Assembly: GCF_000743535.1 (NCBI RefSeq)
Contig: NZ_AVCJ01000001.1
Span: forward strand, 310,001 to 374,000
Reading direction: 5' to 3'
DNA from: Arenimonas donghaensis DSM 18148 = HO3-R19
GTDB taxonomy: Bacteria > Pseudomonadota > Gammaproteobacteria > Xanthomonadales > Xanthomonadaceae
Length of the DNA stretch: 64,000 bases
Below, piece by piece: positions 39,219-40,462 of the stretch. Positions within the stretch are counted from its first letter, which is position 1, and every line of letters starts with the position of its first letter. The position numbers and the translations under genes are program-made. The notes beneath the pieces were generated by a model. It was given only the letters and a program-made list of their open reading frames with translations. It was not told the DNA's origin and did not search any database.

Positions 39219-39638
39219 ATGAACATCGGAGCAGCCTCGAAGCTGAGCGGACTCAGTGCGCGCATGATCCGCCATTACGAACACGTCGGCATCCTGCCGG
39301 CACCGTCGCGCACTGCCTCGGGCTATCGCCGCTATACGCCGGCAGACATCGAGCGCCTGCGTTTCATCAGCTGGGCCCGCGCTCTGGACTTCAACCTGCG
39401 GGAAATCGCCGAACTGCTGCGCCTGCGGGTCCAGGGCGAAGGCGGCTCGGAGCAGGTGCGCCACCTGGTTGAATCCAGGCTGCGCGCCATCGCCGGCCAG
39501 GTCTCCCGGCTGGAAGCCGCCAAGGCATCGCTGCATCGGTTTTGCGACTACGACGCGTCAGGCGACACCGAACCCCTGTCCATGGGCGGTGATTCGGGTG
39601 CGATGCACAATCAGCGCGAAAGCGGCGGATCCCGGTAG
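39219..39638 (+). CDS. CueR-like MerR regulator lacking the second metal Cys
   Basis: This 139-residue protein has the MerR HTH (MNIGAASKLSGLSARMIRHY, ILPAPSRTASGYRRYTPADI) and a long dimerisation helix. Ser77 matches the Ser that marks Cu(I)/Ag(I)/Au(I) sensors. CueR binds metal with two Cys seven residues apart; here Cys109 is present but the partner position 117 is Thr. The C-terminal tail has Met, His and Gly but no other Cys. Its last 28 bases overlap the end of the convergent HMA-like gene. It may sense a different ligand; its probable target is the 19-bp-spacer promoter at 40432-40462. Confidence 0.87.
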   Translation: MNIGAASKLSGLSARMIRHYEHVGILPAPSRTASGYRRYTPADIERLRFISWARALDFNLREIAELLRLRVQGEGGSEQVRHLVESRLRAIAGQVSRLEAAKASLHRFCDYDASGDTEPLSMGGDSGAMHNQRESGGSR

Positions 39639-39871
39639 GCCGGATAACCCAGGCTGGACAAGGCCGTCTCGACGTCGCGCGCCGTCAGCGTGCTCGCCAC
39701 GCTGACCCGGCCCGCGACCAGGTCGACATATACCTCCAGGCCCGGCGCCAGCTCCTGCAAGGCCGTCACGATCCGCTGGAGGCACTGCGCCCCGCGCAGG
39801 TTCAGCACCTCGAAGTGCAAGGCGTCGGGGTCGCGGCACCGGCCCGGCAAGGGCCGGGCCGGCGGGTTCAT
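39611..39871 (-). CDS. HMA-like small protein with incomplete CxxC
   Basis: The ATG at 39871 lies just past the stop of the barrel gene; a TTG five codons earlier is possible. The 86-residue product keeps the heavy-metal-associated fold pattern: LHFEVLNLRG, then QCLQRIVTALQELAPGLEVY, VDLVAGRVSVAST, and ETALSSLGYPA. The metal loop that should read CxxC reads GAQC, so only the second Cys remains. It would be a cytoplasmic chaperone-like protein with weak or changed metal binding. Coupled to the outer-membrane gene and overlapping the regulator's 3' end. Confidence 0.72.
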   Translation of the reverse strand: MNPPARPLPGRCRDPDALHFEVLNLRGAQCLQRIVTALQELAPGLEVYVDLVAGRVSVASTLTARDVETALSSLGYPAYRDPPLSR

Positions 39872-39872
39872 T

Positions 39873-40391
39873 TCATCGCAGTTCAAAGGTGACCATCACG
39901 ACATCGAGATCATGTGCGTCGGTCTTGTATCGCGCGGCTTCCAGGCTGACGCTGAAGAGCTCCGTCAGGTCGTAGCCCAGGCCGACGCCAACATAGGGAT
40001 CGACGCCGGTTTCCGAGCTGGACGTGCTGACGTTCGACCGGGTGATGTCCCAGCGGTGCGCGCCCAGGCGCGCCTGGGCAAACAGGCCCGACCGGCCCAG
40101 CGGGAACTTGCCGGCGAGGCCGAGCTCGAAGGAGCTGATCTCGGGGTCGAGCGGGCCGCCCGCGCCGGGCGTCGTGCCGAAATAGCTGCCGAGACCGTTG
40201 TAGCCGAGCTCGGCTGAAAAATGGTCGCTGAAGCGCCAACCAACGCCCAGGGTCCAGGCCAGGTTCTCGTCGCCCTCCAGGCCGGAAGCGTCGACGTGGC
40301 CGGCACCGCCGCGCAGGTAGAAGTCGTCCGCCTGGACCAGCCCCGGGACGGTGGCCAGCGCAAGTACCGCACACACACGTGCAAGTCTCAT
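39873..40391 (-). CDS. Small outer-membrane beta-barrel protein
   Basis: This 172-residue protein has a signal peptide (VCAVLALATVPGLVQA, cleavage before DDFYLRGGAG). About eight alternating amphipathic strands follow (AWTLGVGWRFSDHFSAELGY, SSFELGLAGKFPLG, DPYVGVGLGYDLTELF), ending VVMVTFELR, a usual C-terminal barrel signature. It resembles OmpA/OmpX-like eight-stranded barrels, which act as adhesion, stability or small-pore proteins. It is the first gene of a leftward pair with the HMA-like gene, behind a MerR-type promoter, which suggests metal or stress control. Confidence 0.82.
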   Translation of the reverse strand: MRLARVCAVLALATVPGLVQADDFYLRGGAGHVDASGLEGDENLAWTLGVGWRFSDHFSAELGYNGLGSYFGTTPGAGGPLDPEISSFELGLAGKFPLGRSGLFAQARLGAHRWDITRSNVSTSSSETGVDPYVGVGLGYDLTELFSVSLEAARYKTDAHDLDVVMVTFELR

Positions 40392-40431
40392 GGGATTCCT
40401 CAGGTTTTACGGTGGGGGTTGGAACCGGGGG

Positions 40432-40462
40432 AGGTTGCACGGTGACATCGTGTCAAGGTCAA
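40432..40462 (-). promoter_or_regulatory. MerR-type promoter with 19-bp spacer before the barrel/HMA genes
   Basis: On the leftward strand a -35 TTGACC (40457-40462) and a -10-like CAACCT (40432-40437) are 19 bases apart. The dyad TGACA-CGA-TGTCA (40443-40455) fills the spacer. The spacing and central dyad are characteristic of MerR-family control, and a CueR-like gene lies 0.8 kb away. The rest of the gap to 40742 contains no supportable gene. Confidence 0.7.

Follow-up and report, generated by a model that had tools for sequence, protein, structure and literature searches.

A CueR-like regulator without the metal-cysteine pair, possibly kept with an outer-membrane barrel operon in Arenimonas donghaensis

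The MerR family of regulators, for whose action and DNA recognition a background source is available (PMC9909328), includes the copper sensor CueR, in which a pair of cysteines has been described as essential for function (PMC6899792). In published work, the CueR mutants C112S and C120S are reported still to bind DNA (PMC6679193), a protein truncated from I122 is described as a constitutive repressor (PMC6899792), and the quadruple mutant T84V/N125L/C112S/C120S as a copper-independent constitutive activator (PMC6899792). Members of the family that carry no recognisable sensor are also known, CvkR and HiNmlR being the examples named in one such account (PMC9938897).

The locus considered here lies in a 64,000-nucleotide stretch of DNA (‘the window’) from Arenimonas donghaensis, in a genome of 2.98 Mb (G000), and is compared below with a second locus from the same genus (G004). 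Its features are as follows.

39219 to 39638, forward strand: MerR-family regulator, putatively CueR-derived, open reading frame of 139 amino acids, lacking both the metal-cysteine pair and the C-terminal docking helix
39611 to 39638, no strand assigned: 28 bases over which the regulator and HMA genes, which converge, overlap at their 3' ends
39611 to 39871, reverse strand: HMA-like (CopZ-like) protein, 86 amino acids from the ATG at 39871 (the more likely start) or 91 amino acids from the TTG at 39886
39873 to 40391, reverse strand: small outer-membrane beta-barrel protein, 172 amino acids, OMP_b-brl 67.3 bits (cut-off 28.7)
40432 to 40462, reverse strand: MerR-type promoter of the barrel gene, with a -35 element TTGACC (40462-40457), a 19-bp spacer and a -10 element CAACCT (40437-40432)
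40439 to 40459, reverse strand: operator of CueR type (by sequence), ACCTTGAC-ACGAT-GTCACCGT, its core common to the G004 barrel promoter

We take CueR to be the closest known system, on the strength of the curated model, the tree, Ser77 and the operator. Among NCBIfam models the CueR equivalog model TIGR02044 ranks first for the window regulator, at 93.3 bits and under its cut-off of 147.4, and the broader Pfam models (MerR_1 at 62.4 bits, MerR-DNA-bind at 43.4 bits, and MerR) all exceed their cut-offs. The DNA-binding domain is CueR-like, the serine of monovalent-metal sensors is present at aligned position 77, and the CueR-type structures 4wls and 1q05 are among its PDB relatives (Z 13.9 and 13.6). 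CadR provides the best PDB sequence match (59.0 bits, with CueR at 52.5) and ranks first by structure at Z 14.4, level with CueR (13.9) to within 1; however, the CadR/PbrR model TIGR02047 gives the protein 78.8 bits against a cut-off of 151.45, and position 77 is Ser. The NmlR model gives 56.2 bits against a cut-off of 175, and residue 54, which in NmlR we take to be the conserved thiol (Cys54), is Arg. MerD, a metal-blind co-regulator of mer operons that acts at the metal sensor's promoter, offers a likeness in a possible way of working, as a MerR-type paralogue without a metal pair; the window regulator differs from it in score (27.9 bits, cut-off 103.65) and in lying beside a barrel gene. 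With HiNmlR and CvkR, as described in PMC9938897, it shares the MerR fold and the lack of a recognisable metal site (5d90, Z 12.2), and it differs from CvkR, whose dimerisation mode and operator are described there as being of other kinds. The window also holds, at 369-689 on the reverse strand, a second MerR-family regulator (42% identical to the first) in which positions 77, 112 and 120 are all Cys, the pattern seen in sensors of divalent metals.

The metal pair of CueR (residues 112 and 120) is broken in the window regulator under any alignment, as the whole protein contains a single cysteine. A preliminary description of this DNA had pointed to Ser77, Cys109 and Thr117, all of which are literally present in the reading frame, and had concluded that the regulator lacks one metal cysteine. 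The loss of the pair stands; the underlying equation of C109 and T117 with CueR C112 and C120 (the ‘first register’) is backed by some alignments and contradicted by others. In the alternative (‘second’) register, A113 and S121 occupy the metal positions, and C109 falls one helical turn earlier, opposite the Ala of the family's LAxxC. The first register is favoured by the match to E. coli CueR (residues 1-117 to 1-120) and by that to PRK10227 (1-114 to 1-117). Against it stand two multiple alignments that place C109 three residues early, two HMM alignments that run free of gaps to residue 110 (with posterior marks at C109 of just ~0.6-0.7), and the TIGR02044 match (1-117 to 1-116); a third alignment puts Asp112 and a gap at the metal positions. 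Structure alignments do not decide the register: where they end, model and chain numbers are offset by an amount that changes from row to row. When the two were compared against profiles without gap costs, the three-residue deletion of the first register beat the one-residue insertion of the second by 17.7 bits with 34 Ser77 relatives (-5.6 versus -23.3 bits), and by 11.4 bits with 61 relatives (2.4 versus -9.0). Because this comparison favours the first register, we do not claim firmly that C109 is displaced and that both metal cysteines are gone. The protein retains at most one metal cysteine, with the alignments in disagreement over C109; if the first register holds, it retains one.

The C-terminal end is altered in either register. 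The hydrophobic docking helix (I122, I123 and L126 in CueR) is missing, the corresponding places being filled by Pro, Leu and Gly in the first register or by Gly, Gly and Gly in the second, and HMM matches stop at residue 110 or 118. An AlphaFold2 model (built from a five-sequence alignment, mean pLDDT 82.2) places the dimerisation helix at residues 74-113, and residues 117-139, with pLDDT below 50, are predicted to be disordered. This tail contains Met, His and Asp residues, and third-position GC drops from 0.80 for the regulator to 0.74 within it. A recent frameshift in the tail was considered and is not supported: the gain of the shifted frame against an HMM of the relatives is 5.9 bits, rank 3 of 61 (2 of 60 controls score higher), and third-position GC is higher in the annotated frame.

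The setting of these changes among relatives was examined in an alignment of 65 sequences: the window protein, E. coli CueR and 63 retrieved relatives. The relatives were picked by similarity to the window protein among matches with retrieved loci, and do not amount to a census; matches with E above 1e-8, shorter than 100 residues or identical to another row were dropped. Both metal cysteines are kept in 61 of the 63, the exceptions being the G004 regulator and L005 (G000:C10:7354-7698), a MerR-like match with an internal TGA that is apparently a broken copy.

The G004 regulator is 44% identical to that of the window over 113 residues, and is convergent with a barrel gene orthologous to that of the window (50-51% identical). 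It has Ala77, Ser at position 112 and its single cysteine at position 120, and so has lost the pair as well; orthologues with full pairs, which the preliminary description had named as the sign of a recent decay in the window, were not found, the sole linked orthologue retrieved being this one. The two proteins have no cysteine in common in either register, C109 belonging to the window protein alone and the 120-equivalent to G004 alone. The G004 protein keeps the docking helix (CDIVAIL) and has Leu84 and Ile125. Among the 61 relatives with a cysteine pair, position 84 is Ala or Thr in 58, and the Val found there in the window protein is shared by two; at position 125, Ile or Leu occurs in none and Val in two.

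Reading frames are intact in both species, and the regulator and barrel genes are convergent neighbours in both within different flanks, with asparagine-synthase-like and glyoxalase-like frames (named by eye) in G004 and a DinB-family gene on the window side. A tblastn search of the 14-kb G004 stretch found no HMA relative, and no HMA gene lies between its regulator and barrel genes. In a tree of the relatives, the two regulators form one branch (support 90/95), nested in a clade of 36 rows together with E. coli CueR and most of the Ser77 relatives (the midpoint root being for drawing). They also share 11 residues that are rare in the 34 Ser77 relatives, against a maximum of 10 among 423 control pairs of Ser77 relatives below 62% identity. 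Their branches are long (0.95 and 2.43, on a stem of 1.38), and since long branches can attract one another, the grouping has support but falls short of proof; independent evidence for it comes from gene linkage and the operator.

Of 369 genomes of the class, 155 had a match to the regulator, at no more than 45% identity among the matches listed, the window aside; tblastn found no other pair of neighbouring regulator and barrel genes among matches with retrieved loci. A plasmid search returned at least 5000 records, all below 60% identity, the best 20 being annotated as CueR or MerR-family proteins; an exact peptide-pattern search of genome contigs gave one distant Microbacterium match, and viral contigs gave five distant regulators and no barrel. 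The barrel protein, whose N-terminus resembles a signal peptide by eye, matches above 35 bits in just two of the 27 genomes of the genus, G000 and G004 (the G004 orthologue scoring 67.4 bits against OMP_b-brl). Among 297 genomes of the family, 74 had a match to it, none above 62 bits except those two, and among 369 of the class, 23 had a match, none above 67 bits except G000.

Loose promoters of the same sort number 43 in the window, so the barrel promoter means little by itself. The promoter with a 19-bp spacer and a dyad that had been proposed upstream of the barrel gene is there (TTGACC-N19-CAACCT at 40462-40432, reverse strand), and the MerR type assigned to it can be narrowed to a CueR type with a core common to G004; the dyads of the barrel boxes agree at 6 of 8 positions (window) and 5 of 8, the right half being weak. 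ACCTTGAC-N5-GTCA is matched exactly once in the window, and five times when up to two mismatches are allowed, where 2.8 would be expected. G000 and G004 each contain a single copy of TTGACCTT-N9-T-N-A, upstream of the barrel gene in both (reversed control, 0), and TTGACCTTGAC-N5-GTCA likewise occurs once per genome in the two, both times before the barrel gene. Across 395 genomes of the family the latter box is found in four (G000, G004, G487 and G282, the G282 copy falling inside a coding frame); the reversed control is also found in four, so the box is not enriched as such, and the case rests on placement rather than on counts. The G487 copy (L209, 5431-5450) lies before a gene for a copper-type ATPase with YHS and HMBD domains. 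Exact matches to the box were also present in 80 viral stretches; in one of them (L204, 2090-2450), tblastn places a relative of the regulator within about 60 bases of the TTGACCTTGAC-N5-GTCA box.

The usual copper box of the family reads, by eye, TTGACCTT(C/G)CC-AYNNT-GG(C/G)AAG. CueR-type boxes of this architecture, which the barrel box shares, stand in G000 at copA, at a CopZ-like gene and at a cluster for a multicopper oxidase and outer-membrane efflux. The last of these boxes (G000:C1:288421-288440; L061, 12441, reverse strand) lies upstream of a 135-residue frame without a Pfam match, an outer-membrane efflux protein and a multicopper oxidase; its left half is GAC, as in the barrel box. 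The barrel promoter is thus best described, at the level of sequence, as a promoter of CueR type with a symmetric change of core from GCC/GGC to GAC/GTC. A shifted operator specificity unique to the barrel gene was considered and rejected, given the GAC half-site at the oxidase cluster and the GAC...GTC box before the G487 ATPase gene; since the change lies within natural variation, canonical CueR may also bind the barrel operator. Such a CueR is encoded by G000 (161.7 bits against TIGR02044, cut-off 147.4; cysteine pair kept), adjoining copA and a CxxC chaperone some 68 kb from the locus at 39219-40462. In G004, the regulator search gave two matches, one to the barrel-linked protein and the other to a ZntR/MerR-like protein that has both cysteines, stands beside a copper-type ATPase and scores under the cut-off of all curated models listed; neither match is a CueR above the model cut-off.

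The HMA gene resembles those for CopZ-type chaperones in sequence pattern, and a model of its product, a beta-alpha-beta-beta-alpha-beta arrangement (mean pLDDT 65.8, modelled from one sequence), would be consistent with their ferredoxin-like fold. It differs from them in having Gly for the first cysteine of the CxxC motif (GAQC), and it scores 19.9 bits against Pfam HMA, under the cut-off of 24.8; its third-position GC of 0.92 is a strong coding signature. That the regulator and HMA genes end on each other, as first described, is borne out by their overlap, and the claim that the HMA protein keeps one cysteine holds for the motif (C35 counted from TTG, C30 from ATG), with two more upstream, C3 and C17, on the TTG reading. 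The barrel stop codon and the HMA start are one base apart (TGA-A-ATG), spacing that suggests translational coupling of the two genes. Fifteen of 16 HMA homologues examined (from 17 rows, L046 being dropped by eye as a chance match) keep CxxC; the exception is a protein with TWGRC in G002, of the same genus, encoded about 3 kb away from a CueR that retains both cysteines. This copy (L259, G002:C11:97116-97289) is about 2.6 kb from a normal TCGRC copy on the same contig, and single-cysteine HMA duplicates thus appear to arise elsewhere in the genus. A plasmid search for the HMA protein gave no match.

The parallel losses in sensor and chaperone had been proposed to reflect co-evolution of the two toward a single-thiol ligand. 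The comparison of orthologous loci points the other way: the two regulators share no cysteine in either register, the pair is missing from the G004 regulator although its locus holds no HMA gene, and the single-cysteine HMA protein of G002 is found near a CueR whose pair is intact. Because loss of the first HMA cysteine and loss of the regulator pair occur apart and are thus uncoupled, co-evolution is not supported.

The explanation that we prefer, tentatively and with somewhat less than even confidence, is that the locus holds a CueR-derived, metal-blind regulator kept together with a barrel operon, on a duplicated and fast-evolving branch of CueR. A CueR duplicate would have lost its Cu(I) input and kept its DNA-binding domain along with a dedicated target, the barrel promoter, from which the small outer-membrane barrel gene and, in the window species, the HMA gene downstream of it would be read. 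Like MerR proteins in general, the regulator most likely occupies the 19-bp spacer, where it would set the shape of the promoter without binding copper. The window protein would probably behave like apo-CueR, as a bound repressor, a reading suggested by the absence of both a cysteine pair and docking residues in either register; the G004 protein reads as activator-like, because CDIVAIL is kept and is accompanied by Leu84 and Ile125. As the docking helix persists in G004, the two regulators are unlikely to share one fixed state. In the window species, expression of the barrel operon would follow from a shortage of the regulator or from its displacement, which the intact, copper-loaded CueR of G000 might bring about at this CueR-type operator in a MerD-like competition; any role for the barrel and HMA proteins is putative. 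Several points speak against this explanation. It draws on just two loci with long branches, which also fits relaxed constraint; the right half of the barrel box is weak, and the box is as frequent in its reversed form across the family; in the first register the window protein would still have one metal cysteine; and ordinary CueR may suffice for control of the barrel gene, given the barrel-like box at the G487 copper-type ATPase gene and the GAC half-site at the G000 oxidase cluster.

Decay is a serious rival, although we consider it unlikely: the regulator and HMA genes would be copies of cueR and copZ that drift as constraint on them relaxes, with the barrel gene controlled by intact CueR or by nothing. 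The long branches of both regulators are what such drift would leave, as are the HMA score under the Pfam cut-off and the regulator tail, disordered in the model and with reduced third-position GC, and an intact CueR exists elsewhere in G000. Set against this are the intact frames in both species, the high third-position GC of the HMA gene, the conservation of gene pair and operator between species at 44-51% protein identity, and the lack of a CueR above the model cut-off among the two G004 matches. With two loci, slow decay and repurposing of the regulator cannot be told apart.

A bolder form of the metal-blind reading would see in these proteins a natural class of ‘hard-wired’ CueR, having lost its metal input and serving one barrel promoter, near the repressor state in one species and near that of a copper-independent activator in another. 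This is rather improbable as a whole, and within it the two states would be set by changes at or near the positions of the engineered locked mutants. The likeness to those mutants is one of sequence, G004 being activator-like and the window protein repressor-like, and the substitutions themselves are not identical. Among the entries listed in searches of an open-licence library, no barrel-linked CueR paralogue without the cysteine pair was found described, which is a weak negative.

Sensing of another ligand through one thiol (a single-thiol metal complex, an oxidant or an aldehyde), as suggested in the preliminary description, is improbable. The single cysteine of the window protein is near the end of the dimerisation helix and may be the equivalent of CueR Cys112, and HiNmlR, a MerR protein without a sensor region, is reportedly regulated through a thiol. 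However, G004 has no cysteine at that place and a different lone one elsewhere, which leaves the two proteins no common thiol, and Arg at residue 54 and the low NmlR score argue against kinship with that group.

Equally doubtful is a copper-independent activator, in which the regulator would be fixed in, or biased to, the active shape of CueR and would drive the barrel gene constitutively, its amount being the sole control. Ser112, Leu84, Ile125 and the retained CDIVAIL of G004 recall the T84V/N125L/C112S/C120S protein of PMC6899792, and the rarity of Ile or Leu at position 125, and of the window's V84, among relatives with the pair points in the same direction. The window protein, however, lacks the docking helix, the G004 protein retains one cysteine, and two residues form a thin basis. 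A non-canonical metal site restoring metal sensing (for example through C109, Asp110/112, M122, M129 and H130 of the window protein) is highly improbable: the tail does offer Met, His and Asp, but it is predicted to be disordered, and by eye none of these residues is kept at the aligned place in G004.

If decay is the right reading, the locus holds an ordinary duplicate that is being lost. If the preferred explanation is true, a one-component metal sensor has become a signal-free regulator with its operator and target retained, and the protein may be a regulator that outlived its signal. The locus would also be a candidate for connecting copper-type regulation with a small outer-membrane barrel, and the two proteins would offer a natural test of the model in which the C-terminal helix of CueR decides between repressor and activator.
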